DNA from: Betaproteobacteria bacterium
GTDB lineage: Bacteria > Bdellovibrionota_B > Oligoflexia > Silvanigrellales > Silvanigrellaceae
Assembly (NCBI GenBank): GCA_016868315.1
Contig: VGHE01000011.1
Span: 1 to 64,000, forward strand
Reading direction: 5' to 3'
Length of the DNA: 64,000 bases
In this document: positions 17,271-35,190 of the stretch, piece by piece
Position numbering within the stretch: the first letter of the stretch is position 1
Layout: every line of letters begins with the position of its first letter
Program-made: the position numbers and the translations under genes
The notes under the pieces: model-generated
What the model saw: the letters and a program-made list of their open reading frames with translations, nothing else
Told to the model about the DNA's origin: nothing
The model's database searches: none

Positions 17271-17427
17271 GAATCGACCTCCTCGAATCCGCCTGTGACA
17301 GTTCTGCCAAACCACGTAAGCTCCAAATGCCCACGCCGACAGGTGCCGCGGATAGTCGCACAGAACTTTTTTTGAGTAATTCGGATATTGGTATGATGAA
17401 GGCAGGATTGGAGGAAACTCTTACCAA

Positions 17428-18042
17428 TCAATCAACGATGTCTTCGCTGAGCTTCTTGCGAATATCCGTGACGAGACTGCGTACCATTTCCGCCAAATCA
17501 CCTTCAGGAGCGTTCCTCACCGTTTCTCCGATCGGAGCCTTCGCCGGAAGGGTGTCAGATAATTGACGCATGCTCTTAGAAATCGCAATGGAGCGACGAA
17601 TTGCGATGTGGAAGGCATCAAGCTCAAACGGCTTACGCACAACATCCACAACCACAACGTGGGGGAATTGATCGACTGTGGCAGCACCATCAGCGTTGTC
17701 GCCTTCAGTGAGCACAACCGGAACTTGTCGATGATTTGCTGCAACTTTCTTCAAGAAGTCTGCGTTGCTCTTCTTGGCAGGAGCAGCGTCGGCGATGATG
17801 ACTTGAAATTGTCTTTGCTTCAGATGAGCGAGAGCCTCGGCCACACTCCGTGCTGCGTGAACATGGGAAAAATAGCGGTTCAAATGGATCTTAACGAAAC
17901 GCAGAACCTCATCTGACTCGTCCACGACAAGAACGTTGCTGTCACGGTCATAGACCTTCGTTGGTGGTCGACTCATCGGCGGAATGGATTGAAACCCGCC
18001 CCCCCGAGAACCTGGATCCATGTGTTGACGAACAGAAAACAT
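17428..18042 (-). CDS. Single-domain response-regulator protein
   Basis: 204 residues from ATG 18042, which overlaps the upstream stop (TGATG) behind GGAGAG. A receiver domain at about 35-150 keeps the acidic pocket (VVDESDE), the phosphoacceptor Asp in IIADAAP, the switch Thr in VVLTEGD and the Lys in RKPFE, so it should be phosphorylatable. A Pro/Gly-rich lead precedes it and a 50-residue helical tail follows; there is no DNA-binding or enzymatic output domain. It ends a five-gene overlapping operon of exported proteins. It may relay a cytoplasmic signal to that machine, but no histidine kinase is in the window. Confidence 0.88.
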   Translation of the reverse strand: MFSVRQHMDPGSRGGGFQSIPPMSRPPTKVYDRDSNVLVVDESDEVLRFVKIHLNRYFSHVHAARSVAEALAHLKQRQFQVIIADAAPAKKSNADFLKKVAANHRQVPVVLTEGDNADGAATVDQFPHVVVVDVVRKPFELDAFHIAIRRSIAISKSMRQLSDTLPAKAPIGETVRNAPEGDLAEMVRSLVTDIRKKLSEDIVD

Positions 18043-19148
18043 CACTTCTCTCCACCCATTGCTCGCGTCAGCCGCTCTGCCTGCAACCTCAACGGATCAC
18101 GCAAGTCTGAACCCGACAAATAGTCGAACCCAAATTGCCGAGCCTGTTCCTGGCGCCCAGAAAGCAATGCCAACTCTCCGAAAAGAATCAGCCACGCTCG
18201 TTCCAGAGGCCAATCTTGGCGTCCAGCAGAAATCACTTTGGTCGCCTCATCAGCATCACGCCGACGAATCAGACACTGAGCCCAGTTATACGATACAGCA
18301 ACTTGCCGCGATTTCTTCAAATACAATTGCTCTAGAATCTCACAGCCTTGCGTCAAATTATTTTCACCGAACGAAACGAAGGCAGACTCCAACAGCAAAG
18401 CACTGTCGTTGGGAAATTCATTGAGTCCCATGCGCACAGCCGCGCGCGCCTCTTCAACACGCTCGGATATGCGTAAACACTTCGAGCGCAAAGCCCACAA
18501 TGCCCGTCTGGTCTCAACCGGCTCCCATTGCGACGCGGCAGTGCTCAGCTGAGCGCAGAGAGCTGTTGCACCGACATCAAGATAGAGGCCAGAGAAGACG
18601 AGTGCATCTTCACTGTTGCTCCCCTTCTCCGAGAGACTCTCTTGAATTTTCCAAGCGGACTCCGGATGTCCAAGGCGCACAAACGCAACTGCGCGTGCAC
18701 GGCCGATCTCTCTGCAACGTGGAGATGGGCTCGAGGTGCTGTTTGCGCATTCATTCCACTCTGCTTGCGTTTCCAAGAGCAGATCATTCCATCGCTCCGA
18801 ACGCACCAAAAACTCAAATGCAGGAAGCTCCTGTGCGGCCGGCTTCAAAGAAGCACCCTCTGCAACACCGGTGCTCTGCGCTGCACCCAAACCCAAGGCT
18901 TGAGGTGCACTCACGATTTCCTTGAAACGTTCTGCATGCACCACAGCAGGAAATGAGTAGGATTTTTTGACCTGAGCTGCCCGCTCTGCGGAACTCAGCG
19001 CTGTGCCTGACTCTAAAACAACTCCCGAATCGGTCGGTTTTCTCGGAGACGAAACACATCCGACAAAGCAAGAGATACCCATGGTAACGAAAGAATTGCG
19101 AAGTAGTTTGGAACAGCCGTACATCTGCATTGACCCGCGTGAACTCAT
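18042..19148 (-). CDS. TPR-like lipoprotein
   Basis: About 368 residues; ATG 19148 overlaps the upstream stop (TGATG), with GTG 19151 as an equal alternative (GGGAGG upstream). The signal region ends SCFVGC, a lipobox. A flexible 90-residue stretch leads into degenerate TPR-like helical pairs (EEARAAVRMGLNEFPNDSALLLESAFV, GCEILEQLYLKKSRQVAVSYNWAQCL) spanning most of the protein. Operon position between the large TPR protein and the receiver protein suggests it anchors a complex to the outer membrane. Function unknown. Confidence 0.85.
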   Translation of the reverse strand: MSSRGSMQMYGCSKLLRNSFVTMGISCFVGCVSSPRKPTDSGVVLESGTALSSAERAAQVKKSYSFPAVVHAERFKEIVSAPQALGLGAAQSTGVAEGASLKPAAQELPAFEFLVRSERWNDLLLETQAEWNECANSTSSPSPRCREIGRARAVAFVRLGHPESAWKIQESLSEKGSNSEDALVFSGLYLDVGATALCAQLSTAASQWEPVETRRALWALRSKCLRISERVEEARAAVRMGLNEFPNDSALLLESAFVSFGENNLTQGCEILEQLYLKKSRQVAVSYNWAQCLIRRRDADEATKVISAGRQDWPLERAWLILFGELALLSGRQEQARQFGFDYLSGSDLRDPLRLQAERLTRAMGGEK

Positions 19149-22100
19149 CACCGCGATACCTCCCGCTTGACCGAGAGAACATTGGGGCTCTCGAGAACAG
19201 CAAAGCCAGCCTCGGGCGACACCGCCGGCAAGCGCGGTGCGCTCAGTGCCCCACGCCTGAATTCATCTCCCTGCAATTGTACCAGCCGATAAACCGAGCT
19301 GAGCTCCGCAGACGATGCAGCACTCACACGTGCCAGTCCAGACAAAACCCGCGCGTTGAGATCAACAAAGCGCGCTGAGATGTCCCGAGAGCAACTCTTG
19401 TTTTCTGAACCTGAGAGATTGGGTTGCTTTGCGAGCACCGCACAGCCCTTCATTAGGCTCCCGAACAGCTGACCGAGGCGAACTGCGTTCTCCCTAAATT
19501 CCGTAACAGATTGACCAGCAACTAAGCGCTCTGCATCTCTCTCAATTTCACCGCGCCAGAAACTGAACGCCGACCGCGCCACTGAGATCGCATGCAAAGG
19601 CAAAACACCACGCATGGCTGACTCGGTTAACGGCGCTGTGCGACCCGAAATAAAGCCAAGTAAGCGCGCTTCAATTCCGGACGCTGAGAGCTTCCTTGCA
19701 CGGGTTCGTGCATAGAGTTCAACCATCGGAGCAAAGCTCAGAACAGAATTGCTGATGGTCGAGAGTTCCTTGCGTTGCTCAACAGCAAGCGCGGTCAAGC
19801 CATCACTCAAGAGTTCTGCCTTGTCGAAAGCCTCTTCGTGCAGGGCGGCAACGCTCCAATCAAGAACGCTGCGGTATGCAATCGCGCTCTGGCCAGTGCT
19901 CTCACCAACCTTTAAGAGCAAAGCCTTGACCTGCAAAGTCTCCTGCCAAAGCTTCAGTTCTGCAAAAATATTACCAGCACGAACGAGATCTGATGCGGAG
20001 AGCAACAATAGCTCCGGCCGAGCAGATGCGATGGCCAACTCAGACGAGCTCACCCACACGCTGCCGGCAGCAACGAACCGGCCCTGTGCTGCATAGACAA
20101 TTCCTAACCAACGCAGCGTATGAAATTTATCTTGTTCCGAATGTGCAGCGCTCAGCACAATAGACCTAGAGGTCTCGAGGCATTGTTTTTCAAAACCGGA
20201 AGAGCAGAATGCCTTAGCAGACAAGTAAACAAGGTCGCGGCCAAATTCCGAATCACGACCCATCCTTTCACCCGCATCGCGAAGTCGCTCAGCAGCAACA
20301 AGCAAACGACCTTCTTGCTTAAGGCGAGCAGCATCACCGAGCACGTATGCAGCCAAAGAAGCTTCCAAATGCCGCCGAGAGGAATCACTTACTCCAAGAA
20401 TACTGGCAGCGTCGCGATGCATCAGCCACGACAATTTTTCCAGCCCACTGCGGTCAGACTGAAGCGAAAGAAGCCTCACTGCAGCCGAAAAGAAGGCTAA
20501 GCGCTCCATCTGGGACGACTCACCGCGATCGCTGTATGATGCATACAACCGCGTGAGCAATTCCTCGCTGTTTGCGAGAAAACTGAACTCGATTGAGTCG
20601 TTGAGTGCATCGAGTGCGATGCGGCGAACTTCAGGTGCACCAGCTGAAAATGCAAGTGTATCGAGCACCTCGGCTAAATATCTTTTCCACGCCTGTAAGT
20701 CCTTCGTGTTCTCTTTCCAAACGAGCTGATACATTTCCAGCCGAGCTGTGCGGATCTCTTCCATGTCAGTCTTCGACAGTCGACACTCGCTCAGAAGCGC
20801 AAAAATCTTTTCACTAAAAACGACGTGCTGGGCAGTAGAAAGAACCCGATGCGCAACTTTAAGGGTCGCTGTAGACTTGCAAAATTCAACATTCTCGCGC
20901 GCAATTGCATCAGAAACTCTGAAAAACTGAAGTGCCTTGGTCGAGGACATCTTCCCTGATGACTGTGCGGCGCGGAAGGAAATGACATCCTTCGCCCATG
21001 CGACCACCCTGTCGCTGCGGCGCTGATCGCGTTTGGGATCCCTAGACAGTGTGCGTGCAAATTGACCATTCACTTGAAGCGCAAGCACTCCGCGCTCCTT
21101 GAAATCAATCTGGCGCTCGATCAACCCTTGCTTTTCGGCTGCATCGGCCGCTGCAGAATAGAAATCGTCGGCAGCAGATGTTCCTGCAAGCGATGGCTCA
21201 AGGACGTCACTCCAGCGCATCGCCAAGTTATCGTTGTCCCGCTGAAGTAAATATCGAATAGATTTGGAGAGCCCCGCGGCAACCCAAGGAGTCTGTGCCG
21301 CCAAGCGCTGCCAGTGGGAAGCAGGAAGGGGCGCATCAACCTCGCTCAGGGCAACGCCCAACATTGTTGCGAGATCAGCTGCAAGCAATGGATTGACGGA
21401 AAGTGTGTCTGAGCCTGGATCGCGTGTGAACTGGGTCAGATGCGCCAGGACATCGGCATAGCGTGTCAACCGAAAAGCAACCCAGGCAGACCGAAGGTCG
21501 AGGTACACACCTTGTGGAGCCTTTCCCTTTGATTTGCTTCCATAGCATTCACGTGCAAGTCCATAAAGTTCGGCTGCATTCGAGAACTCTCGCTGCTGAA
21601 ATGAAACATCTGCAGCAACAACCTTTGCCAGACATGCCGCTGTGGTCGACGCCAAGCGCGCTTGACCCGACATGGCCACGATCTTCGCGCTCATCCGAAT
21701 GGCCTGATCGAATGCGCCGGAGACGAGCAAATCGGCAGTGAACATCACAGCAACTTCCAATGCCTGCTCTGATGCTGGTGATATCTGTTGAGCCAAAAGG
21801 GTAGCGCGCTGCAACGCATTGCGGCGCTCTTGCCCAGCGGAACGAGCCGAAATAAACAGGGCAGCCTTCAATGCGGAATCATCCGCAGGTCCCGAATATG
21901 CAAGAGCAGACAATTTCTTTCTCAGATCTGAACTCATCTCAGATTCGCGGCGGGATAACTCGTCGAGAAGGGAATCCTGTGCTGACAAGCGACGCGATAG
22001 CTCACTTGCATTCTTCTTTGCCATCTCCTCTGCCCAAACATCGTAGTTATCTCGGAGCAGGGATAAGGACAGATCGCGTGCCGATTGCGACTCAAGCTCA

Positions 22101-22231
22101 ACAACTTTGCGCGCGCTGCCCTGTGCGAAGGCAGCTCCTCCAGCCAACGTCGATCCGACTGCAACAAAGACTGGTACGAGATAGGCAATGCGTAAAAGAG
22201 CTCGCGGGAGGGCAAATCTCAAGCAGTTCAC
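19148..22231 (-). CDS. Large exported helical-repeat (TPR-like) protein
   Basis: 1027 residues from GTG 22231. The GTG overlaps the upstream stop (GTGA) and has GGAGGG 8 bases before it, better than the TTG 15 bases further up. Signal peptide with cut after GGAAFA. The mature chain is almost wholly alpha-helical, with many paired helices rich in Ala/Leu and the look of degenerate TPR (SNAAELYGLARECYG, GIVYAAQGRFVAAGSVW, ERLRDAGERMG). Few cysteines. Size, export and repeats suggest a periplasmic scaffold, formally comparable to GltD/AgmU of the Myxococcus gliding machine; that comparison is by architecture only. Confidence 0.85.
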   Translation of the reverse strand: MNCLRFALPRALLRIAYLVPVFVAVGSTLAGGAAFAQGSARKVVELESQSARDLSLSLLRDNYDVWAEEMAKKNASELSRRLSAQDSLLDELSRRESEMSSDLRKKLSALAYSGPADDSALKAALFISARSAGQERRNALQRATLLAQQISPASEQALEVAVMFTADLLVSGAFDQAIRMSAKIVAMSGQARLASTTAACLAKVVAADVSFQQREFSNAAELYGLARECYGSKSKGKAPQGVYLDLRSAWVAFRLTRYADVLAHLTQFTRDPGSDTLSVNPLLAADLATMLGVALSEVDAPLPASHWQRLAAQTPWVAAGLSKSIRYLLQRDNDNLAMRWSDVLEPSLAGTSAADDFYSAAADAAEKQGLIERQIDFKERGVLALQVNGQFARTLSRDPKRDQRRSDRVVAWAKDVISFRAAQSSGKMSSTKALQFFRVSDAIARENVEFCKSTATLKVAHRVLSTAQHVVFSEKIFALLSECRLSKTDMEEIRTARLEMYQLVWKENTKDLQAWKRYLAEVLDTLAFSAGAPEVRRIALDALNDSIEFSFLANSEELLTRLYASYSDRGESSQMERLAFFSAAVRLLSLQSDRSGLEKLSWLMHRDAASILGVSDSSRRHLEASLAAYVLGDAARLKQEGRLLVAAERLRDAGERMGRDSEFGRDLVYLSAKAFCSSGFEKQCLETSRSIVLSAAHSEQDKFHTLRWLGIVYAAQGRFVAAGSVWVSSSELAIASARPELLLLSASDLVRAGNIFAELKLWQETLQVKALLLKVGESTGQSAIAYRSVLDWSVAALHEEAFDKAELLSDGLTALAVEQRKELSTISNSVLSFAPMVELYARTRARKLSASGIEARLLGFISGRTAPLTESAMRGVLPLHAISVARSAFSFWRGEIERDAERLVAGQSVTEFRENAVRLGQLFGSLMKGCAVLAKQPNLSGSENKSCSRDISARFVDLNARVLSGLARVSAASSAELSSVYRLVQLQGDEFRRGALSAPRLPAVSPEAGFAVLESPNVLSVKREVSR

Positions 22232-24171
22232 TGCGCAACCCTCCAATCTAGATTCTCACTCCGCAACCTGCGCAGCAGCTCAAGACGTGCTCTGGTTGCA
22301 CGCGCAGACTCACGCTCTTGTGCGACATCGTCTCTGAGCGAAGCCTCGGCGAGACTCACTTTCAATTCAATTTCCCTGGATTTCGCAATGAGATTCGAAT
22401 CAATCGCAACTATCGTCCGCATCAGAGCAGGCCTCAATTCAGTGGCCGAAGAACGCATGATGCTCGAAATTTCTGAGCTCAGCTTCCCAAGCTCGGTCTG
22501 CAGCGGATTGAGCTCTTTAACAATCCGCTCACCAACTGCCTTGCGTGCAGCCATACTGCGGTAGCTCTCCGATTCAATTCTATTCACAAGTGCATCCGCG
22601 TCATCGAGGAAAAGAATCATGGCGTTCAAAAACGCTGCATCAGTCGGTTTGTTGCTCTCGCCCATGAGTGTCCGGAAGTCTTTTAGCGACTTCTTTACCT
22701 GTGCATTTAGCCGAATGAGCGCTCTGAAGTCCTTCTGCACATTTGGCTGAAGGACAACTGTCATCTTAAAGAATTCAAGCAATAGCTCGCGCTTCTGATT
22801 TTCGAGTTCCTTCATCTCGGCTCGTACATTACTAATATTGCGGGAATCCGAGGCATCTAATGAGCTCACTAAATAGTAACTTGCAAGCAGTGCATGTGCC
22901 CTTCTCATTCGCTTCTCAATATCGGTCATGCGACTCTGGACTGTTTGCACAGCTTGAAGGTCGCGCTCGAAAAGGCTGTCATTAAAAGCTGCAGCTAATG
23001 GCGAGGGCAGCAAGACCATGCGTTGCTCGAGAGCCTCAAGATTTTCCCAAGCCCACTCAAACCGCTTGTCTTCTCTGAGCTGCGAAAAAGCTCGCGCAAG
23101 AACGGCTGTCACTTCATAGAGCACGAGTCGCGAACGAACAAAAGCAAGCTCTTGGTCTGCCTCAACCTGCATGGTTTGGGGTGATGAGTTTGCTATCCAG
23201 TGCTCCATCAGCATCTGCAGGGCTCCTTGCCGCATCAGCAGCTCAACCCCAGAAGTCATTCCAGAAATTAGATTTATGATTGCCTTCCACTCTTTATTAC
23301 CGGAATCGTAACGTCGCACGAGTTGATCAAGGCGATAGAAGTCGAAAATTTCCGGCTCTCGTCGTTCAAATATTTTTGCAACGCTTGAGAGCTCTTCTCG
23401 TTCCTGTTCAAGCTGCCAACTGCGATACTTTAACTCTCGAAGCACTGCCTCAGGGGTAGCTTTCATCGCTTCGCTTCCATCCTGACGCTTTCGTCCAAGA
23501 GCCTGCTCGAGTCTTTGCCCGACCTCGGCAAAAATCTCTTCGCCTCGATGCATTTCAGCTGCGTTCGCGAACAAATATTGCCTTTTTTGTGAATCCTTCT
23601 CTGCCAGGAGATCAACGACAGATTCAAAGATTGCGAGGCGCCTCATGACCCATTCGAGCCCATTTCGATTCGCATCGTCTCGCGCATCTTTCAGAATTCG
23701 CTTTGCAATCGAGGCATCTCCCAAACTTGCGGCAGAGCCAGCAAGAACAAGGGCATCCTGCCAAGACAGAGGCTGAGGCTGCGCCTTCAGATTCTCTATA
23801 GCAATCAGAAGTCGAGTGGTCTCAAGTGGTGATAACTTCTCCTGCAGTATCACTGCCAGGTATTCCAAACATTTCTTTTTTTCACCCAGCTGAAATTTTT
23901 GGCGCAGCGCACATTCCACAGCGCCAATAGAAGTCGAATTGAATTTGCTCGCGCCTAACGACGACTTTATTCCAACGGGTGATTGCTGCATTGACATAAA
24001 ATGCTGAATGCGTGATCGTGACTCGACCCAGAGTGAAGGATCAGCAGAAAAGGCAGTCGATGCAAAAGCAAGGCTCGTAAAAATCAGGGAGGAGCAGACA
24101 ACCGGCCTGTGAGCAGACGCCGCTGTCACTGCGATGATGTGCCAGATTTTCCCTACGGCCGCGAAGATCAC
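22228..24171 (-). CDS. Exported all-helical protein of unknown function
   Basis: 647 residues from GTG 24171, which overlaps the upstream stop (GTGA) and follows GGAG at 5 bases. The N-terminus carries a long hydrophobic segment ending AFASTAFSA, a signal peptide with an extended n-region. The rest is strongly helical and charged with coiled-coil-like stretches (about 430-490 and 560-645: AEMKELENQKRELLLEF, ARATRARLELLRRLRSE). Two cysteines near 88 and 100 may pair. No family recognised. It is coupled on both sides and overlaps the TPR gene by 4 bases. Confidence 0.83.
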   Translation of the reverse strand: MIFAAVGKIWHIIAVTAASAHRPVVCSSLIFTSLAFASTAFSADPSLWVESRSRIQHFMSMQQSPVGIKSSLGASKFNSTSIGAVECALRQKFQLGEKKKCLEYLAVILQEKLSPLETTRLLIAIENLKAQPQPLSWQDALVLAGSAASLGDASIAKRILKDARDDANRNGLEWVMRRLAIFESVVDLLAEKDSQKRQYLFANAAEMHRGEEIFAEVGQRLEQALGRKRQDGSEAMKATPEAVLRELKYRSWQLEQEREELSSVAKIFERREPEIFDFYRLDQLVRRYDSGNKEWKAIINLISGMTSGVELLMRQGALQMLMEHWIANSSPQTMQVEADQELAFVRSRLVLYEVTAVLARAFSQLREDKRFEWAWENLEALEQRMVLLPSPLAAAFNDSLFERDLQAVQTVQSRMTDIEKRMRRAHALLASYYLVSSLDASDSRNISNVRAEMKELENQKRELLLEFFKMTVVLQPNVQKDFRALIRLNAQVKKSLKDFRTLMGESNKPTDAAFLNAMILFLDDADALVNRIESESYRSMAARKAVGERIVKELNPLQTELGKLSSEISSIMRSSATELRPALMRTIVAIDSNLIAKSREIELKVSLAEASLRDDVAQERESARATRARLELLRRLRSENLDWRVAQ

Positions 24172-24857
24172 AGTTTCTCCAAAACTTTCCTGTTTTGTTG
24201 GGATGTCTCAGCTGAGACTTCCTTTCCAAATTTTAGTCTCAAACCATCGGCGCCATTCTCTAATTCAACTCGTTGCAGCTGCCGCGCACCCGCCTCGGCA
24301 TTCACCTCAATGGCAAGCGTTTTCTCCAGGGTCTGCCATGCTGCAGTTGCAGAATTGGAAATGCGTTCGTCCATAGGGGCAGCCAGGAATTGAACACGCA
24401 TTAGATATGTGCCCTCTGGCAAACGCCCCAGAAAAAGCGGCAGAGGACTTTTTGGCGCAACAATCAGGGCGCTCTGTGTGTAGGAAAATGGTCTACCATC
24501 GATCGAAAGACGAACGTGGCTGACAGCCACACTCCGTGTTGCGGACGCTTGTTCAATAGCGTCTGCAAGTTTCATCTCGAGCTTATATTCAACCGACTTC
24601 TCATTAATCTTTCCGAGAAGCTGTGCTTGTGATTCTGCAATACGCTGTTCAATTTCCCGGATGCGACTCTCGAGTGCTGCAGCACGACTCGACAATTTCT
24701 TTATTTCAGCTGGTGTTTCATCAACACTGCCTTCGACGACAAGATCATTAGCCAATGCCGACGCACTGAGCATCAACCCGATAAAGCACAGCAATAAGCG
24801 AACGGATTTACGTGTAACATCAACCGCACGCCCCAGGGGGAATTGTGTCCGTTTCAT
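24168..24857 (-). CDS. Exported coiled-coil protein with beta C-domain
   Basis: 229 residues. Signal peptide with cut after ASALA. A coiled coil at about 50-85 (LSSRAAALESRIREIEQRIAESQAQL) leads to a small beta domain that includes VRLSIDGRPFSYTQ, LPLFLGRLPEGTYLMRVQF and a C-terminal strand region. The latter pattern looks like a domain that presents a surface hairpin and may bind a partner. First gene of the overlapping five-gene set; 89 bases separate it from dus upstream. Function unknown. Confidence 0.84.
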   Translation of the reverse strand: MKRTQFPLGRAVDVTRKSVRLLLCFIGLMLSASALANDLVVEGSVDETPAEIKKLSSRAAALESRIREIEQRIAESQAQLLGKINEKSVEYKLEMKLADAIEQASATRSVAVSHVRLSIDGRPFSYTQSALIVAPKSPLPLFLGRLPEGTYLMRVQFLAAPMDERISNSATAAWQTLEKTLAIEVNAEAGARQLQRVELENGADGLRLKFGKEVSAETSQQNRKVLEKL

Positions 24858-24890
24858 TGTTCTCTGCCCAATTTGAAAGATTGGCTGTTC

Positions 24891-24918
24891 CTGACAGGAT
24901 CGTTACATGCACTGACAG
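24891..24918 (-). promoter_or_regulatory. Two direct repeats upstream of the five-gene envelope operon
   Basis: CTGACAG occurs at 24891-24897 and 24912-24918, 21 bases apart (two helical turns), in the 89-base gap between dus and the first operon gene. On the coding strand they read CTGTCAG. I see no convincing -35/-10 pair beside them. They could bind a regulator that lets this operon be controlled separately from the upstream genes; low certainty. Confidence 0.3.
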
Positions 24919-24946
24919 AACTGCAACGAGCAGAGATTGCCCAACG

Positions 24947-26071
24947 CTAGAGGAATTTGACCCGCTGGTAGGATGGATTTTCGAAGCGACGCCCAAAGTC
25001 CTCAATGGAATCGCGCAGCTCCGCACAGCTCTTGGCCTTTGTGCACATCTTCCAAAAAGAGTGTCCGAACTGATACCACCGCGAGCCCGTTGCTGCAAAA
25101 AATCTAAACTTTTCAAGCACATATTCCTCCTTGGGGAAGAACTGCTGCATCAGGACCAGGAGCTTGAGGCAAGCGTTGATATACTCGCGCCCTTCTTCCT
25201 CAGGCGTCCACGGACACTTTTCATGCTCTCGTCCGAAGGGTGCCACTGTGTTCCCCGTGAGCTCAGCAATCTGCCACATGATCCAGGGGCGAGCTGTCGC
25301 GGCGCGTGCGATCATAGCACCATCAGCTGAAAATTCCGTGAGCATACGCAAAGCGTCATGCGCCGTTTGGATGTCTCCGTTGGCTACAACTGGTATTTTT
25401 CGCACACGGGCGACTTCTCTTACCAAATCCCAATTCGCTACACCTTTGTGTTGCTGAGCGCGCGGACGCGGGTGAATAGTGAGCCAGTCAGCTCCGGCCG
25501 ACTCCAAAGCGGCAGTGAATTGCAGAAGGTAGTCGAGCTGCTCACTTTCGCCCGCACTACCGCGTAGCTTAACACTCACAGGTTTATCGGAACTGCGCTT
25601 CGTCCACTCCACAACCTGCGCTGCATAGCCGGGATCACCCATGAGCCGAACGCCCCAGTTGTGCTTCAGCGTATGTGAAACCGGACATCCCATATTGATG
25701 TCAAACCCCCAGGGGTTGGTCTGCGCGAGCTTCTTCACGCTGGGGGCAATGTATTGCTCCTCATTGCCAAGCAACTGTGGAACAAAGAAAGCCTCCTCGG
25801 GAGCGGTTTTGAGTTCATTGGTTGTTTCGAGTTTTTCATCGGGTATGCGACGTGTAGAAAGCATCTCGGTGAAGCGCAGTGGATTTAGACCAACGGGCGT
25901 GTACGAACGCACAAGTTCGCGAAAAGCAACGTTGCTCAGACCCACCATGGGTGCCACCATGAAGGGAAATTCAAGTCCTAGAATTGACAAGCGTGTGCGC
26001 GGCAGAGGAATGACCTTGCCCGATTCAGCGTGTGAACCTGACTGTACGTCAGTGGGAGACGGAATACTCAT
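24947..26071 (-). CDS. dus: tRNA-dihydrouridine synthase
   Basis: 374 residues from ATG 26071, 13 bases after the Omp85 stop. A flavin-dependent TIM barrel that reduces uridines in tRNA. Present are APMVGLSNVAFR (FMN phosphate side), DINMGCPVSHTLKHNWG with the catalytic Cys, and NGDI plus GAMIARAA of the phosphate site. The usual HGRTR motif reads HPRPR, a noticeable variation at a residue pair near the flavin and substrate. It is longer than typical Dus proteins (310-350) with a C-terminal helical domain. Which Dus subtype it is I cannot say. Confidence 0.92.
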   Translation of the reverse strand: MSIPSPTDVQSGSHAESGKVIPLPRTRLSILGLEFPFMVAPMVGLSNVAFRELVRSYTPVGLNPLRFTEMLSTRRIPDEKLETTNELKTAPEEAFFVPQLLGNEEQYIAPSVKKLAQTNPWGFDINMGCPVSHTLKHNWGVRLMGDPGYAAQVVEWTKRSSDKPVSVKLRGSAGESEQLDYLLQFTAALESAGADWLTIHPRPRAQQHKGVANWDLVREVARVRKIPVVANGDIQTAHDALRMLTEFSADGAMIARAATARPWIMWQIAELTGNTVAPFGREHEKCPWTPEEEGREYINACLKLLVLMQQFFPKEEYVLEKFRFFAATGSRWYQFGHSFWKMCTKAKSCAELRDSIEDFGRRFENPSYQRVKFL

Positions 26072-26084
26072 GTGTTGCGCCCGC

Positions 26085-29000
26085 TTAAAAATTGGCACCA
26101 ATTCCGATATGGTATGCGCCGGGCAGGGGGAATAACCCAAAAAGCCTGGAAGCGGAATACCTTCTCACACATGTGGGTGCCTGCTGAAAGGCATCTGCAA
26201 CGGAGGGATCAACACACTGACCTCCCTTGATATTTTCGCTCGGCTCGGAGAGCGGAAAACCAACATCAAAATTGAGAGACGCAAAGGTTGAAATGATGTA
26301 ACGGACGCCCAAGCCAGTCGAAACATAGGCATTCTCAGCATATTGCTTAAAGAACGAGAGCCCATCCACGCTCACTGGCGTATCACCAAGAACCTTTGCT
26401 GACTTAAGTGCGCAGGTATCCTGCGAACCCGGGTCAAGATCGGTTCCACTGTCACTCAGGCTGGCCTGCAGAGAATTCAGCTCAGAGCCTGTGAAGAAGG
26501 CGGCTCCTGAATCCAGAAACGCTGCAAATCCCAGGTTGTTCGCCAGCCATGGGGAACGCACACGCAGCTCACTCTTTGCATAGAGAACGTTTGTTGCCCC
26601 GATTGGACGCAACGTGGGCTCACATTTCAGACTCGGATTCTGCTGCGGGGGCTGAAAATTTAACCACAGCAGTGGCCCTGGAGTCACAGCACTGCTTGCC
26701 TCGGGAAATCCTCGAACCAGAGAACGTCCGGCGAGGGTTGCTCGCCTCGAGCTTGGCGCAGTGAGTGCCTTTTGCTGATTGTTAACAACATCAGAGATTC
26801 GAACGCCACCCGCATTTACCGCACCAGAAACCCGCTTCCAGAGCGGAAAGAAATATCCCAAATCTGCCGTATAGCGATCGTATTGTACATCTGAATAAAG
26901 TCCGAATCGTGCGTGGCTTGAGGTCAAATCGACTGTCCCACCACGGGTCGGCCATTCGACGTTGTTGCGAGAATCGACCGACAAACCAAGCACAAACTCA
27001 CGAATTTTAATTGTTGGTCGCTCCAACGCCTCAAGGGGCTGCAACGATGAACCCAATGCCTTTGACCATTCATGAGCAATCTTGAATTGAAAAGCCCACG
27101 TCCGTTTGAAAATTGAGGGACGCCATGCAAGACCAGTTTCGGACGTTTCAAAATACCTGTCTGCGAGCGATTGAGCAGAGACCTCAACACCTGTCAAAAG
27201 GTTCCAATCGAAAGGAAAGACAACTCCTCCCAGTCTTAGCATAGGCTCTGCCAACCCGAGGGTGAGTTTCCGGCCTAAAATTCTTTGATTTGAAAGCACA
27301 GAGCTCTGCAACTTTTCCTGACTCACCGAGAACGTTGACGTGAATCGCAGACCGTCTTTGGTCAAATTGTTCTTCGCATAGTCGACGCTAAAACGATAAC
27401 CATTACGCGTCCCGTAAGACGGACTAAGCCCGAGTGTATAGCTCTTTTTCGCCTGGGTGCGGATAACGACATCAAGGACTGAGTTTCTTCGCTCGAGGCT
27501 TTCCGATGAGAGCGGTTCAATCAAAATACTCTCGAAAAGATCATGCTTCAGCAAACGCAATCGCGCTGCTTCAAGATTTTCGGGCGTGAACAGGTCACCA
27601 GGGCGCAACCCGCTCTCAGAAACAATTCTCTCTTGTTTTCCAAAAACATCACCGTCTGCAAAGATGTTTCCGATTCGAACCAATGGGCCAGGTTCAATAT
27701 CGAGGACGACCTTGATCGACTTCACATCTGAAGCAACAGACAGACTCTTCGATTCAACCCGCGAAGTCGCATAGGCATAGCCGGCATTCATGAGCTCAAG
27801 CTGCGCCTCGTCTTCAATCAGCTTGAGTTGTCCCGCATTGACGGGTTGTCCTGGCTGAATAATTTTTTCTTCAAACTCGCTCGACAACACGAATCCACGC
27901 GGCTTTCCAAGAATGGTCAGCTCCCGCAAGATGGATCGTGGACCAAGGTTGGTTTCAAAAACAAGCTTCACCGAGCGCGAATCAGCAGAGTAGACAACCA
28001 CAGGGTCTGCAACTCTTGCGTCTGCATAGCCCTCGTCGAGAAGCAGAGTCACAAGTCGTTCCTTGTATCGCGGAAGAGCATCCTCGACGAAGGGGACTGC
28101 ACCTTGAAAAATTCCGGGCTGTAATTCGAGGCGTTCCAGGGCATCCTTCTTCGTAACGGGTAGCTCACCAATGAATTGGGTTTCACTGATAACAACGACC
28201 GGTCCACTTTGAATATAAAACCGAACAACCGAGTCGCCATTGGGATCGGTCACCCGAGTCGGCCCGGTGACAAGTGCTGACGCATAACCCATGCGTACAA
28301 AAATTTTCCGCACTTCTCCCTTGAGCTCATCCTCGGACACAGAGAGAACGTCATAGGGGGAAATGCTCTCCCGAAACTCTGAGAGAACGTCGGAGACAAC
28401 CCCTGACTGTCGATTCACAACTTCGACCCGAGTCTTTGGGCCTCTCTCGTAGAGGATCCTCACAACTGCAGTCTCTTTGTCGGAAGAATAAATGATCTGG
28501 TTCAGAAAAAGCTCAGAGCTCAAGAAACCATCCACCAACAACCGTGCCTTCTGCCTGTCCAGAATTTCGTTGATAACGGCACGGTCACACAGAGAACCGA
28601 GCTCAATGGGTGTTGAAAAGTAGTCGAATAAACCTTCATCAGGCTCAACTCGAACTTCTGCAACGCGACACGGTCTGTCTAACGAAACAGGGAATACAAC
28701 CTTTAACTCATTGGACAGCGTGCTCATGACCTCAGGTCGGCCAACAGTTGCTTTCAAATATCCACGCTCAACCATCTTGAGACGAATACTCTCGCGGTCG
28801 CGTTCGCTCTCCTCAACAACGAAGGGCGACCCTACACGAAGCCGCATATTAGACCGTGCCTGCTGAGTTTGTGCAGCCGTGAGTCCTCGAAAGGCAATCT
28901 CACCGATACGAGGCAGCTTGCGTGCAGTCACTTTATATACGGTTCGATTCTCTCTAAGATGCCTATCCACTGTGATGTGATTGAGGTTTGCTCGCTGGTA

Positions 29001-29252
29001 GAGAATCTGAATAAGAGCATGGCTCAATTCATCACTATCCCTGGACTTCAGCTCACTCAAAAGCTCATTTCCAGGATCCCAAGCCTTGCCGTCAACCTCG
29101 AAAGAAAACTCAACCTCAGCTTTCGATGATGCATTCCGCGCTGGCTCAGCAAGAGCAGACATCGAGGACAACGACACAGAAAGCCATATGAGAGCAAGAA
29201 TTCGAGCTAGATATGACATGAACAACAAGCCAGCGGATCTCGAAAGTCTCAA
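26085..29252 (-). CDS. Omp85-family outer-membrane protein (TamA/BamA-like) with long POTRA region
   Basis: 1055 residues from TTG 29252, preceded by GGAGG at a good distance; an ATG 11 codons in lacks a Shine-Dalgarno. Signal peptide, then about 600 residues of periplasmic POTRA-like modules (recurring GxxxFxG...G..y patterns, e.g. RIGEIAFRGL, ILRELTILGKPRG, RIGNIFADGD), then a C-terminal beta barrel. The barrel carries the diagnostic RSLVRGFPE motif and ends in aromatic GIGANF. BamA has five POTRA and about 800 residues, TamA three and about 580. Linkage to tamB suggests a TamA role, assembling or inserting outer-membrane components. It follows tamB after 2 bases. Confidence 0.92.
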   Translation of the reverse strand: MRLSRSAGLLFMSYLARILALIWLSVSLSSMSALAEPARNASSKAEVEFSFEVDGKAWDPGNELLSELKSRDSDELSHALIQILYQRANLNHITVDRHLRENRTVYKVTARKLPRIGEIAFRGLTAAQTQQARSNMRLRVGSPFVVEESERDRESIRLKMVERGYLKATVGRPEVMSTLSNELKVVFPVSLDRPCRVAEVRVEPDEGLFDYFSTPIELGSLCDRAVINEILDRQKARLLVDGFLSSELFLNQIIYSSDKETAVVRILYERGPKTRVEVVNRQSGVVSDVLSEFRESISPYDVLSVSEDELKGEVRKIFVRMGYASALVTGPTRVTDPNGDSVVRFYIQSGPVVVISETQFIGELPVTKKDALERLELQPGIFQGAVPFVEDALPRYKERLVTLLLDEGYADARVADPVVVYSADSRSVKLVFETNLGPRSILRELTILGKPRGFVLSSEFEEKIIQPGQPVNAGQLKLIEDEAQLELMNAGYAYATSRVESKSLSVASDVKSIKVVLDIEPGPLVRIGNIFADGDVFGKQERIVSESGLRPGDLFTPENLEAARLRLLKHDLFESILIEPLSSESLERRNSVLDVVIRTQAKKSYTLGLSPSYGTRNGYRFSVDYAKNNLTKDGLRFTSTFSVSQEKLQSSVLSNQRILGRKLTLGLAEPMLRLGGVVFPFDWNLLTGVEVSAQSLADRYFETSETGLAWRPSIFKRTWAFQFKIAHEWSKALGSSLQPLEALERPTIKIREFVLGLSVDSRNNVEWPTRGGTVDLTSSHARFGLYSDVQYDRYTADLGYFFPLWKRVSGAVNAGGVRISDVVNNQQKALTAPSSRRATLAGRSLVRGFPEASSAVTPGPLLWLNFQPPQQNPSLKCEPTLRPIGATNVLYAKSELRVRSPWLANNLGFAAFLDSGAAFFTGSELNSLQASLSDSGTDLDPGSQDTCALKSAKVLGDTPVSVDGLSFFKQYAENAYVSTGLGVRYIISTFASLNFDVGFPLSEPSENIKGGQCVDPSVADAFQQAPTCVRRYSASRLFGLFPLPGAYHIGIGANF

Positions 29253-29254
29253 GT

Positions 29255-32200
29255 TTACTTTCCTCCGAACTGGAATCTGAAACCACCCTTCAGCTCGGAG
29301 TAGGTTCCAATCTGCGACGAACGGCGGTCGAAACCACCGAGAACATTCACGCTCTCGTTGATAATGAGTTCGCCCGTCAGGGATTGGCTATTGGGCTCGA
29401 AATCAAGACCAAGATTAAACTTTTCACCTAGGTCGCGGCTGACGCGTGCACGTAAGCTGCTCTGGCCTGATTCAACAATGGGTTGAAGCTCGAACCGATC
29501 CACAAAACCGCGGGTGATTCGCGAAACAGCTTGGCTCAAAGGATCATCAAAGAAACCAACCACACCGTTGGCCAGCGCTTGAGTCACCGCTGTTTGTGTT
29601 GTCTCTCCAGGTCCGCGGTTTGTAGAGATCATGCGAATCAAGGTCGGTCGAGACAGGGGCATACCATCGGGTCCAGTTGAGGGGTCACTCCAGATATTGA
29701 GCCTCGGTCTCGACAAGGGTCCCTCGGCACCAACAAAAACACTGTAGCGTTCTATTTTTGCAACCATTTGCGCATCAAGTCTGGGCTCAATGCGCGTGAG
29801 GTTGTCGAAGCTTGCATCGGCGCGTGTCACTTCGAAGCGTGTCTTGAGTAGACTCAGTTGCCCGTTGTCGAGTCGGATTTGTCCTGAAACGAGTGGATCG
29901 ACATCGGTTCCGGCGACCCTCAGCGCCGCCGAAACGCGACCACGTATGCAAGATGTTTGCAGAGTAAAACTATTATCAGCCTCAATACCGATGTTCATTG
30001 CCGTCAAAGGCTTAGTTGGTGAGGAAATTGAGGCATCTGCAGTCCCGGCTGAGCCCGTGCGCCACAATTCCTGACAGGTCGCATCGCGGTAGGCACGACC
30101 CTTTGTCAGTCGGAGATCGCCGCTCAGAAGATAAGGACGATCCTGTCCCGAGAGCTCAAGTTGACCATCCAGGTTTGTTTCGACTGTTTCAAAAAAGTTC
30201 TGAGGCCATCTGAACTGAGCGCCTTTCATATTTGCACGCAGCGCCACAGATGGCATCTGGTCGCCCATGGGACGTTCGGCGTTTGGCTGCAAGTCGATTG
30301 TACCCACGAGATCCAACTGACCGTTGCCTTTAGATGCTGTGAGTGCAGGTATCTCGACGGTTGACCCGCGCAAAATCATCCTGCCATTCATGGCGTTGAG
30401 TGGGGGACTAAAGTACTTTCCTGCAAGAAAGACGTTGTCCAAACGAGCTTCACCACTCAACTGCGTTTCCTCTGAGTCAACGCTCAATTGGCCGCGAAGG
30501 TTCACACTTCCGCTCGACTGCGACACCAAATTCGAGAAATTAGTGGCCAAGGCCGCATCGAGTTGACCGTCGAAAGAGGCAGCTACAGCGGTATCGACAA
30601 GCGAGTATGAACCGCTCAAACGCATCTGCCCGGTGGAACCTTTCACAAACAAAGGTGCCATCGAAACCGTGCCTCGACTGAGCTGGAGCAAGGTCGGGTC
30701 GTTCATCAGAAAACCTTCACTGCCAAACTGAACCCGCATTTTGCTCACTTGCCCACGACCGGAAAGATTTCCTAGCGCAGATCGCCAATTCTTGAGGAAA
30801 GTTTTAAGTCCTCCCCCCTCTGCTGTGAGCTCGGCGCTGACCGCACCCGTTGTACGCAGGTCTCCTTTATTGAGCCCCGGTATATACTTGAACAATTCGA
30901 AAGAACGCAGGCCAAGATAAATCTGCGACGACTTCTCGAGTGCATGATCAAATACAACGCGTGCCTGAATCTGATCGAATAGGCCAGACAACACCAGATT
31001 GAGAGATCCTCCGGCATACGAAGAGGCGGCGGCAAAAATGCCTCCGAGCGGACGATCGCCAAAAGTGAGTCCGTCAACACGTCCAGTCAACGACATTTCC
31101 CAATCGCGCCAGCCACCCTGCAAATGTCCTCGCAAATCGAATTTGCCAACAATTGGCATTCCATTTTCAGACGTCCATGCAAACGGAATCGACTGTAGAT
31201 CTGTCCTCATTGCAATCGACTTGTTCGAAACAGAATCAATCTCCAGAATCAACTTCGAGCGCGCCAAACCCGCCGAACTTAAATCTGCTGATTTCGCCTT
31301 ATTGTTGAGATAATCCCCGAGGAACACCTCTTGGCCGTAAATTCGACTTCCGGAACACCAGCCCTGCTGACAGGTTACAGCCGCCTGGAGATCGCGCGCG
31401 TTCAGCGTCGATGAACGTAGGTTCCGGAATCGCATCCGCACATCGATTGCTGAATTGAGGAAATCACTAATATTCCCTCTAATTCTTAAGCGTGTCATTT
31501 GAACATCGCCGCTCACATTTTTGTCGAATCGGTCTGCATCTTGATCGAGTATCGAGAACATCTGCGCAACAGAACCGTCGAATTTGCCATCCAGCTCGAG
31601 CACTTTGCTTTTGAAACCAATGTTTATCTGACTGGCAGTCATATTTGGAGATTCACGCTCATCTTCGAGCCAAGCCTCGAGTCCAAATCCTCTGAATCCC
31701 TTTTTATCAATTTCGATTATTCCCGAGACACGAGGCACAATGAGACTGTAAATCTCTCCGGCGTTTGCCTGTACCTCAGATCTGAAAAGAACAGGTTTAT
31801 CTCGCGATGAGGTAATTGATGCACGCAGATTGAGGCTACCCGACATCTCATGACCGACGAAGTATGAAATAACTTCGGCAGGCAAATTCAGGCCAGTGAA
31901 GCGAAAGTCGTTGGTGGATTTCTTATAATCAATCAGCCCTTTTTGTAGGTCAAATGTAATTGAGGGCTGATTGTATTCATCCAAGCAGAACATATCAGAG
32001 CCTGCGAAGGTCATTGCGTGCGAATCAGTCTCAAGCTGCAAAGCGATCTGACAGTCCGGAAGTTCATACTGGCTTTGCTCGAAGCCGGGCACAGAGAATT
32101 TCGTTGTGCGGATGTCACCCTGAGCGACAAGAACGAATCCACGACCCTTTTCTGGTTGAATTTCTCCGCTCACCTTGAGCAGATTCGAATTCATTGTAAA

Positions 32201-33391
32201 GTTGACAGCCTCTGTTGGGACGGTTAGCCCGCCCATCAATTCCGCAAACGGCATATTTACCATGCGCGCAAAATTGGTATAGGGCATGTTTCCCGTGAGC
32301 GAGTACTCGCCCCACGCTTCGAGTTTTGCACCGGTTGGTGTGATGATGTTTGCATTCTGATAGCTAATTTTTTGATCCGAAAAACTCACGTCCGCTGTCG
32401 CCGAGTAAATATCGTAACCACTCAACTTCAATGCGTTCCAGCTGACCTGACCGTCAACGCGTGGGTAAAAGTGCTTTGAAGTATCGCTATTTTTTCTGTC
32501 TGGCTGAATTCGAACGTTTGCACTGTATCGTCCACCACCCTCAGTTTGGCTCAACTTGAACCAGGGAGCAGCTTCCGATTCACCTGCAACATTGATGCGG
32601 TAATCAGTGAACCGAAGATCAGAGGTCAGGTTTAGAGCTCCCGAAATCTTCCACGAGCCCAAAAGCCCACGGAGTTCGGTGCGCTCAATCACAATATTCT
32701 GTCCTGGAAAAAAGCTCGCGCTGAGTGAAACCCCATCAAGAGGAATGAGATGCTGACACGGGGGCTGAAGAGGGAGACAAAATCTCGATCCTCCGAACTC
32801 GGACAAAAGTGTCAGGCCATCTCGATTGCTGTCTGAATTGAATTTCAAAAACAGCGATTCGATTTTAACAGAAGTTTCGGACTGCAGATCTTCCGAGTTT
32901 TTTATCTTTGCATTTTTCAATTCAAATTGGTTGCCAACCACAAGTCGGAGAGTGTCGAGAATTTCAAAAACATCCGCGAGAGGCTTTGATGGCTCTGCCT
33001 GATCTGATTTGACGTAGGTCTGTAAATGCAGGTCGACTTCAACACCATCGACATGCAAAAAACGTGCGCGAGGAACCCAAGAAAGAACTGGATTCCAAGG
33101 GTCAAAGCCAAGAGTCAGGGTGTCGACATCGAACATATGTTTTGTCGATGACTGTGCGTCGACAATATGGATGTCCTGCACAACAATTTTGGTCTCCAGA
33201 AAATTTACCGAAATTGTTCCTACATCAAAAACAAGCCCGTACTTGCTAAAAAACCGCGAGTTCACTTCACTGCGCATCCAGGCATGGACGTAGGGATTGT
33301 TTAATATCACGAAGGCAATTGTATTTGAAGCCACAACGAGTGTGACAAAGAGGAAGAGCAGACGTCTAACAATACGCCAAGTTCGCTCCAT
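29255..33391 (-). CDS. tamB: TamB/DUF490 family inter-membrane protein
   Basis: 1378 residues, near the usual 1250-1500. One N-terminal transmembrane segment (about 8-30) anchors it in the inner membrane; the rest is a long series of beta strands expected to form the hydrophobic groove typical of AsmA/TamB proteins that move phospholipid or help outer-membrane assembly. The C-terminal TamB domain is clear, with SRDLGEKFNLGLDFEP and FGGFRFQFGGK-like ends. The gene follows an unknown gene after 2 bases and precedes the Omp85 gene directly, an order opposite to enterobacterial tamA-tamB. Confidence 0.93.
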   Translation of the reverse strand: MERTWRIVRRLLFLFVTLVVASNTIAFVILNNPYVHAWMRSEVNSRFFSKYGLVFDVGTISVNFLETKIVVQDIHIVDAQSSTKHMFDVDTLTLGFDPWNPVLSWVPRARFLHVDGVEVDLHLQTYVKSDQAEPSKPLADVFEILDTLRLVVGNQFELKNAKIKNSEDLQSETSVKIESLFLKFNSDSNRDGLTLLSEFGGSRFCLPLQPPCQHLIPLDGVSLSASFFPGQNIVIERTELRGLLGSWKISGALNLTSDLRFTDYRINVAGESEAAPWFKLSQTEGGGRYSANVRIQPDRKNSDTSKHFYPRVDGQVSWNALKLSGYDIYSATADVSFSDQKISYQNANIITPTGAKLEAWGEYSLTGNMPYTNFARMVNMPFAELMGGLTVPTEAVNFTMNSNLLKVSGEIQPEKGRGFVLVAQGDIRTTKFSVPGFEQSQYELPDCQIALQLETDSHAMTFAGSDMFCLDEYNQPSITFDLQKGLIDYKKSTNDFRFTGLNLPAEVISYFVGHEMSGSLNLRASITSSRDKPVLFRSEVQANAGEIYSLIVPRVSGIIEIDKKGFRGFGLEAWLEDERESPNMTASQINIGFKSKVLELDGKFDGSVAQMFSILDQDADRFDKNVSGDVQMTRLRIRGNISDFLNSAIDVRMRFRNLRSSTLNARDLQAAVTCQQGWCSGSRIYGQEVFLGDYLNNKAKSADLSSAGLARSKLILEIDSVSNKSIAMRTDLQSIPFAWTSENGMPIVGKFDLRGHLQGGWRDWEMSLTGRVDGLTFGDRPLGGIFAAASSYAGGSLNLVLSGLFDQIQARVVFDHALEKSSQIYLGLRSFELFKYIPGLNKGDLRTTGAVSAELTAEGGGLKTFLKNWRSALGNLSGRGQVSKMRVQFGSEGFLMNDPTLLQLSRGTVSMAPLFVKGSTGQMRLSGSYSLVDTAVAASFDGQLDAALATNFSNLVSQSSGSVNLRGQLSVDSEETQLSGEARLDNVFLAGKYFSPPLNAMNGRMILRGSTVEIPALTASKGNGQLDLVGTIDLQPNAERPMGDQMPSVALRANMKGAQFRWPQNFFETVETNLDGQLELSGQDRPYLLSGDLRLTKGRAYRDATCQELWRTGSAGTADASISSPTKPLTAMNIGIEADNSFTLQTSCIRGRVSAALRVAGTDVDPLVSGQIRLDNGQLSLLKTRFEVTRADASFDNLTRIEPRLDAQMVAKIERYSVFVGAEGPLSRPRLNIWSDPSTGPDGMPLSRPTLIRMISTNRGPGETTQTAVTQALANGVVGFFDDPLSQAVSRITRGFVDRFELQPIVESGQSSLRARVSRDLGEKFNLGLDFEPNSQSLTGELIINESVNVLGGFDRRSSQIGTYSELKGGFRFQFGGK

Positions 33392-33393
33392 GC

Positions 33394-34233
33394 CTACTTT
33401 CCTTCGCGGTTCGAATGAACCAATTCCGGAAAAAGTCGCTCGAGAATCTCATGTGCACCAGAGCCATCCGGCTTTTCATTGATCATTTTAAGCAACATGA
33501 TTCCAGCAAGGGTTCTTTCGTCGGCTTTGATCATATTCATGCCCACCAGCATGCCAACAAAGGAAACCAGACCAGCGTTGTTCTTGCTGAAGCCAGTCGA
33601 AAGATTGCTCCAGTTCCCATCAAATCCGCAGCGCTCTAGATACTCATTCACCCTGTGCTGCTGCGAGTCATCTGTAGTTTGGGGGATTGCAGCAGGCTTC
33701 GGCTCTGGCAATGCAGCGGACTCCTGCTCTTGCGTTGGAGCTTGCTTTGGCTCTGGCAGTGGGACTCGTTTGAAGAGTGAGAGCTCCAGATCGTCCGGCA
33801 CCTTTTCCATTTCCGGCTGTTGAGCTGGAACTTTGGTTGCTGTGTCCACAACGGATGCTTTGAGGTCATCCGGTAGAGGGGTGAGAGCCGAAGCAAGAGT
33901 TTGAGTACTCATGAGTTCAGCAATGCGCTGCTCTGAGGACCAACGTCCTCGCCTTCTAAAAATCTCCTTGGCCATAGCAAGCGCAGGTGGATGTTTGGGC
34001 GCAATTGCAAGCGCCACTTCAAGGAGTTTCAACGACAGAAGCGGTTGCGCGGTCAGAACCGCTTTCGCACAATTGACGAGGGAGTCAGCCTGTCTTAGCT
34101 CGTTTTTATCGGTTCGACATAAAGCAATGAAACCGGCAAGCAAGTCAATCCGTTGTGGGTTGCTGCTGATTCCAGCGACAATGTGTTCTAGACTTTCCGG
34201 CACCCGAATTTCCCCCCGAAAACATTTTACCAT
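33394..34233 (-). CDS. Unknown protein with TPR-like N-terminus and Pro/Glu-rich linker
   Basis: About 279 residues. ATG 34233 has AGAGAG close upstream; GTG 34203 (with a GGGGGG run 8 bases before) would be 10 residues shorter. No signal peptide. Residues 20-100 form helical pairs with a TPR flavour (SLVNCAKAVLTAQPLLSLKLLEVALAIAPKHP). A linker rich in Pro, Glu and Gln (about 115-195) joins a C-terminal helical domain with GLVSFVGMLVGMNM. It precedes tamB by 2 bases and is probably the first gene of the minus-strand unit. No function recognised. Confidence 0.8.
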   Translation of the reverse strand: MVKCFRGEIRVPESLEHIVAGISSNPQRIDLLAGFIALCRTDKNELRQADSLVNCAKAVLTAQPLLSLKLLEVALAIAPKHPPALAMAKEIFRRRGRWSSEQRIAELMSTQTLASALTPLPDDLKASVVDTATKVPAQQPEMEKVPDDLELSLFKRVPLPEPKQAPTQEQESAALPEPKPAAIPQTTDDSQQHRVNEYLERCGFDGNWSNLSTGFSKNNAGLVSFVGMLVGMNMIKADERTLAGIMLLKMINEKPDGSGAHEILERLFPELVHSNREGK

Positions 34234-34323: not shown

Positions 34324-35190
34324 ATGGGATGGCTCTCAAGGGAACCTGCTCGCCTTCAGGAATCATCAGAAAAGAAGGCCATCCCGAGTGGTGTCTGGGA
34401 GAAATGCCCCTCTTGCAATGAAATTGTGCTCACCACCGACTTCGAAGAGAACCATCGGGTTTGTCCTAGCTGTGGCTTTCATTCTCGCCTTCCCGGGGAA
34501 GAGCGCGTTGAACTTCTGATTGACCGTGAAACCTTCTACGAATGGGATCACGACCTCTCCAGCACCGATCCCCTCGAATTCAACGATGGCCGCTCGTATA
34601 GCGACCGGCTCAAGGCTCTTTGGAAGAAAACAAAACGATACGACGCCATCATTACAGGTGCGGGGCTGCTTGAAGGTCGCCCTGTTGGACTGGGTGTACT
34701 CGACTTCACATGGATGGGTGGCAGCATGGGAACTGTCGTGGGCGAACGCATTCGGCGCCTGTTCGAACGCGCGCGCAATCATCGGATGCCGGTCATCATG
34801 GTCAGCAGTAGCGGTGGTGCACGCATGCATGAAGGGCTGCTGTCTCTCATGCAAATGGCTAAAACATGCGCAGTCGTGGCGAAACACCGCGATGCTGGCT
34901 TGCCCTTTATTTCGGTGATGTGTGATCCAACAACCGGTGGTGTAGCGGCCAGCTATGCGATGTTGGGCGACATCAACCTCGCCGAACCAAAGGCGACCAT
35001 TGGTTTTGCGGGTCGTCGCGTTATAGAAACCACTATCCGTCAGAAGCTTCCCGACGACTTTCAAACGGCCGAATTTCTTCTCAACCACGGTATGGTTGAC
35101 CGCATTGTGAAGCGGTCTGAAATGAAGGAAGAGATCAATCGAATCCTTGCAGTCTTGTGCGAGCCACGCGATCTCACCCATCCGCAATGA
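34324..35190 (+). CDS. accD: Acetyl-CoA carboxylase carboxyltransferase beta subunit
   Basis: 288 residues. With AccA it moves the carboxyl group from biotin to acetyl-CoA, the first step of fatty-acid synthesis. An N-terminal Cys4 zinc ribbon (C28, C31, C47, C50; CPSC...CPSC) precedes the crotonase-fold transferase with SSSGGARMHEG and the TTGGVAASYAMLGD oxyanion region. GGAGG stands 8 bases before ATG 34324. Its stop overlaps the folC start (ATGA). Length is normal (E. coli 304). Confidence 0.96.
   Translation: MGWLSREPARLQESSEKKAIPSGVWEKCPSCNEIVLTTDFEENHRVCPSCGFHSRLPGEERVELLIDRETFYEWDHDLSSTDPLEFNDGRSYSDRLKALWKKTKRYDAIITGAGLLEGRPVGLGVLDFTWMGGSMGTVVGERIRRLFERARNHRMPVIMVSSSGGARMHEGLLSLMQMAKTCAVVAKHRDAGLPFISVMCDPTTGGVAASYAMLGDINLAEPKATIGFAGRRVIETTIRQKLPDDFQTAEFLLNHGMVDRIVKRSEMKEEINRILAVLCEPRDLTHPQ

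Follow-up and report, generated by a model that had tools for sequence, protein, structure and literature searches.

Organization of the nine-gene cluster

The window analyzed here is a 64,000-nt stretch that forms part of a 3.24-Mb draft genome. It contains nine consecutive ORFs on the minus strand (34233-17428), with the dus start placed at 26071. The genes are spaced by gaps of 2, 2, 13, and 89 nt and then overlap by 4, 19, 4, and 4 nt. A sequence-only reading had described this run with the same strand, limits, gaps, and overlaps, and the ORFs, the domains, and the order kept in relatives all confirm it. Because the order is conserved in relatives, it is more than a chance arrangement.

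The first four genes form the tam half. The 5′ gene, g1 (33394..34233; 279 aa), has no apparent signal peptide and no Pfam match, and its product has a TPR-like helical stretch at the N-terminus and a linker. The product of tamB (29255..33391; 1378 aa) matches PF04357 (DUF490; E 8e-25) over residues 1017-1360. Located 2 nt from tamB is the tamA-like gene omp85 (26085..29252; 1055 aa; TIGR03303), which encodes four POTRA stretches (PF07244) and a barrel (PF01103); among the NCBIfam models, it scores best against BamA, below the cut-off. The gene dus (24947..26071) encodes a DusB-like dihydrouridine synthase (PF01207, E 7e-51).

The 89-nt gap (24858..24946, minus strand) forms the seam at which the tam unit meets a module for exported proteins. 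No consensus sigma-70 promoter or terminator was detected in this gap on either strand, and its RNA folds no more strongly than shuffled sequences (z -0.6). A dus-cc gap of about 85-120 nt recurs at the same place in relatives, and a candidate promoter motif shared across these gaps was not convincing.

Downstream of the seam, cc (24168..24857; 229 aa) encodes an exported coiled coil with a predicted beta-sandwich. The structure model places the coiled coil at residues 50-84 and includes the beta-sandwich with low confidence (pLDDT 62), and a search of this model against PDB returned nothing under E 0.001. A match to FcmC (E 0.003) was rejected as coiled coil only. The next gene, hel (22228..24171; 647 aa), encodes an exported helical protein, and tpr (19148..22246; 1032 aa) encodes an exported long TPR solenoid with a hydrophobic, signal-like N-terminus as read by eye. 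None of these three proteins has a Pfam match above threshold. Despite this, the earlier label of tpr as a large TPR protein is right, given that a search with its family profile recovers consensus TPR proteins (E 9e-12) and that its predicted structure is a solenoid made entirely of helices (mean pLDDT 79). In fold searches against PDB, tpr found generic TPR matches only; the Foldseek match to chain 9hmf_K of the C. jejuni motor scaffold (E 3.8e-4, rank 47, TM 0.22) is not specific.

The TPR lipoprotein encoded by lipo (18042..19151; 369 aa) is matched by Pfam TPR models, and Cys32 of its lipobox (FVGC) is invariant in the family alignment. Assignments of hel or lipo as a T3SS chaperone, HpnD, or an AAA protein were discarded, as the matches reflect TPR or coiled-coil background. 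The last gene, rec (17428..18045; 205 aa), encodes a single receiver domain (PF00072) that keeps the Asp at position 86, and the receiver alignment shows that the Asp, acidic pair, Thr, and Lys positions are all kept. The receiver of G004, a genome of the same family, has lost the phospho-acceptor Asp (AIVQAN at the site; L115:13690-14310) and for this reason is probably a pseudo-receiver.

Upstream of the tam unit, the divergent genes accD-folC-lptD (34324..39436, plus strand) form a conserved border. They are kept beside the tam unit in the window's family, such that lptD and tamAB are near neighbors. On the other side, a gene for a small RNA-binding RRM protein (16968..17315, minus strand; PF00076) lies 112 nt downstream of rec. 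It is a conserved neighbor in the family, with 61-84% identity, far above the conservation of the module itself, and probably represents a unit separate from the nine-gene run.

Gene order in the window's family

Among the Silvanigrellaceae-like bacteria, the order is unbroken in two genera and is found with an insertion in a third. Within the genus of the window, G002 has g1-tamB-omp85-dus-cc-hel-tpr-lipo-rec on one contig, with a broken tamB reading frame, and G001 has the order over two contigs, minus the dus-cc part. Seven g5 genomes have tamB-omp85-dus-cc-hel-tpr-lipo without g1 and rec. In G003, two genes are inserted between dus and cc, and tpr-lipo-rec is located on another contig; this genome also has another TamB-like gene, which lies in a different context (L039, G003:C51). 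In the single-contig genome G010, hel is split into ORFs of 672 and 150 aa (L046:11301-13814), and it is intact in the near relative G009; the split represents a frameshift or decay.

The sequence-only reading had named two observations that would speak against it, namely, no order beyond tamB-omp85 in relatives and a strong promoter and terminator at 24858-24946. What we found instead is an order kept at the family level and a gap with no consensus element of either kind. However, the conservation ends with the family, as the two halves are separate elsewhere in the class. In addition, tam operons enlarged by a TPR-type gene at the 5′ end have already been described in Bdellovibrio, Myxococcus, and Bacteriovorax (PMC3983030).

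Two separable units in the class

In Bdellovibrio, bd2492-bd2494-bd2495 (TPR-TamB-TamA) are co-transcribed, and the arrangement is syntenic in Myxococcus and Bacteriovorax; Bd2492 is a TPR protein that binds MglA and RomR (PMC3983030). Based on this synteny, g1 is the positional counterpart of Bd2492/SgmX. The genes g1-tamB-omp85(-dus) probably form an outer-membrane assembly unit of the TamAB type, like the one known from Bdellovibrio. Similar to bd2492-bd2494-bd2495 and to MXAN_5766 SgmX-5765-5764-5763, it has a 5′ gene without a signal peptide, followed by tamB and a multi-POTRA Omp85 gene. Unlike in those operons, g1 is short and is likened to Bd2492 by its position, and the unit continues into dus and the exported module, an arrangement restricted to the window's family. 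In other Oligoflexia families (L050, L051, L052, and L053), a P-loop/AAA ATPase gene precedes tamB. In L051 and L053, a receiver-like/TPR protein is encoded ahead of the ATPase, which is the Myxococcus order (SgmX-ATPase-TamB-TamA). A search for a sequence relationship between g1 and the genes for ATPases or TPR proteins that precede tamB in these families found none.

The tamB and omp85 genes are adjacent in families f2, f3, f4, f8, and f10 and not adjacent in G020 of f6. Outside the window's family, neither dus nor the module follows tamB-omp85 in the regions read. In G027, a gene for a 3603-aa Omp85 protein lies right after tamB (L054:6206-17017); POTRA and barrel domains occupy the first ~930 residues of this protein, and the other about 2670 residues have no Pfam match.

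The module itself was found away from tamB as an SLT-cc-hel-tpr-lipo-rec operon in eight further families (f4, f5, f6, f7, f9, f10, f12, and f13; the f13 copy is truncated by its contig, and in one f7 genome rec is missing from this locus). Most of these genes overlap by a few nucleotides. The transglycosylase gene SLT is the fixed 5′ gene of the module outside the window's family and is not in the window cluster. Downstream, the class module has fixed neighbors that encode a periplasmic-binding-type protein, a 142-aa protein, a NUDIX protein, and a TPR protein (L107:9417-14276 and equivalents). Profile comparisons with hhalign linked each window-family protein to its counterpart in the rest of the class (E values of 1.8e-14 for cc, 8.8e-9 for hel, 4e-34 for tpr, 2.6e-16 for lipo, and 1.4e-28 for rec). 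A wider scan based on the receiver found nine loci in module context, all apparently within the class; the other matches were ordinary receivers. The separate operons across the class, together with the profile links, indicate that the nine-gene cluster is a join of two older units.

These patterns bear on the earlier proposal that all nine genes form one functional unit, in which the TAM-like system either works together with the exported proteins or inserts them. The proposal draws on the contiguous and tightly spaced genes, the order kept in several genera of the window's family, the lack of a consensus terminator or promoter in the gap, and the prediction that lipo is an outer-membrane lipoprotein. 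On the other hand, the module lies elsewhere, with SLT and without tamB, and tamB-omp85 stand alone, in the eight other families. TamB also persists without the exported set, as it was found in three flagella-less, module-less genomes that were searched (G015, G027, and G036), and the G004 set lies in a flagellar operon (see below). Moreover, the exported proteins are not predicted barrels or autotransporters, which are the usual TAM substrates. We consider a single unit very unlikely, and delivery of the exported proteins by TAM is not supported; the best reading of the TAM link is local co-location. In the Silvanigrellaceae-like bacteria, the module has probably moved behind tamB-omp85-dus, where it could share the tam transcript without sharing its function. 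The TAM neighborhood would then be a family-level rearrangement.

Co-distribution with the flagellum

We compared 58 genomes of the phylum, mostly drafts, and scored them by FliF or FlgK as 50 flagellated and eight flagella-less (two each in f11, f3, f8, and f5). One of the latter, G015, has a single FlgK_D1 match below the family cut-off and was assigned to the flagella-less group. Strong tpr orthologs occur in 43/50 flagellated and 0/8 flagella-less genomes (Fisher's test, 3.4e-6 by genome and 1.6e-4 by genus, neither corrected for phylogeny). For cc, the counts are 37/50 and 0/8, with several of the absences located at contig ends. Four f5 genomes (G055, G022, G017, and G024) and G014 have flagellar genes and no module, which shows that the module is not needed for a flagellum. 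As a control, PilT was found in 8/8 flagella-less genomes and in 0/8 g5 genomes. The module is present in seven of these g5 genomes, and the link is therefore not to type IV pili. Both g1 and PilT are missing from the g5 genomes.

In G004, the module is fused to flagellar genes in the order flgM-flgN-flgK-flgL-cc-hel-tpr-lipo-rec, with successive gaps of 27, -4, 16, 15, -4, -49, -4, and 27 nt; flgL and cc are thus 15 nt apart. The base composition of this contig is even. Linkage to flagellar genes is limited to G004, and the window's own genome has flgK and fliF on other contigs. In the flagella-less genomes G015 and G026, SLT is followed by a short exported TPR remnant, rec, and further conserved neighbors, such that the four exported genes were lost in place. 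In G027 and G044, SLT is all that is left of the module. Consequently, SLT and rec can survive without flagella. At the class level, both the conservation of the module and its association with flagella have good support.

A flagellar tie of this sort could also arise from shared lifestyle if the module were a general envelope or peptidoglycan-remodelling complex that acts with SLT under receiver control. Such a complex is suggested by the fixed 5′ position of SLT outside the window's family and by the five flagellated genomes without the module, and flagella-less lineages may share other losses. However, SLT is retained where the exported set has disappeared and does not occur in the window cluster, and the fusion to flgM-flgN-flgK-flgL in G004 also speaks against this explanation. 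We regard it as unlikely.

Relationship to the AglRQS-Glt gliding complex

In Myxococcus, the core complex consists of AglRQS with GltC, GltD, GltE, and GltG, in which GltD is a 1191-aa exported TPR protein, and Bdellovibrio has four core-complex sets (PMC3169522). The class examined here also carries ExbB-ExbD-ExbD-barrel-TPR504-TPR1032-TPR333-FHA/TonB clusters. The best NCBIfam matches of their members are to GltC (1.4e-60) and GltG (2e-35), both below the curated cut-offs, and to OMP_myx_plus (8e-23), above the cut-off. In the window's own genome, a further barrel-hel-tpr-lipo set of Glt-like paralogs is present (L163; G000:C3:135000-154990), as is a lipo/tpr pair (L162; G000:C1).

The tpr family aligned to the 1032-aa protein in the GltD position with an E value of 2.8e-31 over 821 columns (hhalign), compared with about 1e-3 for control TPR families. 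By this profile comparison, tpr is related along its full length to the GltD-like protein. The match of hel to the GltC-like protein is weak (E 3e-11, only 236 columns covered), and lipo, which is GltE-like in position, matched the GltE-like protein (5e-13) less well than a control TPR family (2e-15). The module resembles the Glt core complex of Myxococcus and relatives (GltC, GltD, GltE, and GltG) in having three consecutive exported helical/TPR proteins of similar size and order. It differs in that the ExbB/ExbD motor, GltG, and the OMP_myx_plus barrel are absent, cc and the receiver are present, and the distribution follows flagella. Genes for ExbB, ExbD, FHA, or TonB were found neither in the module of the window nor in those of the class.

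Given this relationship, the module might be a further gliding or force-transmission machine that is linked in trans to an ExbB/ExbD motor of the AglRQS type and serves surface gliding instead of the flagellum. The full-length GltD-like tpr, the positions of hel and lipo, the AglRQS-Glt-like clusters in the same class, and the multiple Bdellovibrio sets are all in line with such a machine. However, the module has no AglRQS, GltG, or outer-membrane barrel of its own, and complete ExbB-ExbD-ExbD-barrel-GltC-GltD-GltE-GltG-like clusters were found in five flagella-less genomes, which keep them without the module. We think that a role in gliding is quite unlikely.

A candidate scaffold of the flagellar motor

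Since the presence of the exported set follows that of the flagellum, its proteins probably form a scaffold that surrounds the flagellar motor. With modest confidence, we favor the interpretation that cc-hel-tpr-lipo-rec encodes a Glt-like periplasmic scaffold that has no motor of its own and serves the flagellar motor. The GltD-like tpr, hel in the GltC position, the predicted outer-membrane lipoprotein lipo in the GltE position, and cc would assemble in the periplasm around this motor as an inner-membrane ring, a collar, or a sheath-base support, and the receiver may tune the scaffold.

Chaban et al. (PMC5758724) noted that the B. bacteriovorus motor has a 12-fold inner-membrane ring with unassigned components and that a flagellar operon of this species encodes a PflA-like TPR protein about 1000 aa in length. 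The scaffold proposed here perhaps forms the PflA-like ring of Bdellovibrio, and the conserved cc-hel-tpr-lipo operon provides named candidates for a 12-fold ring of this type. More tentatively, and with some doubt on our part, the ring around the motor in Oligoflexia, and perhaps in Bdellovibrio, might derive from a duplicate of the Glt gliding scaffold that no longer has an ExbB/ExbD-type motor. If so, one periplasmic scaffold family would serve both linear (AglRQS) and rotary (MotAB) ion-driven motors. The Glt relationship and the flagellar tie make shared scaffold parts of gliding and flagellar motors a testable idea.

Known motor scaffolds, including PflA, FlcA-D, MotC, and MotK, are TPR-rich and, across phyla, share little sequence (PMC13023049, PMC11870540). 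This literature fits the module without proving its role. Similar to PflA/PflB of Campylobacter, FlcA-D of Borrelia, and MotC/MotK of alphaproteobacteria, the module has an exported TPR solenoid tied to flagellar genes. By its description, the PflA-like protein WP_011165745.1 of B. bacteriovorus belongs with these scaffolds. Unlike the Campylobacter, Borrelia, and alphaproteobacterial scaffolds, to which it has no detectable sequence relationship, the module appears to have Glt-like ancestry, and its single operon encodes a receiver together with four exported partners.
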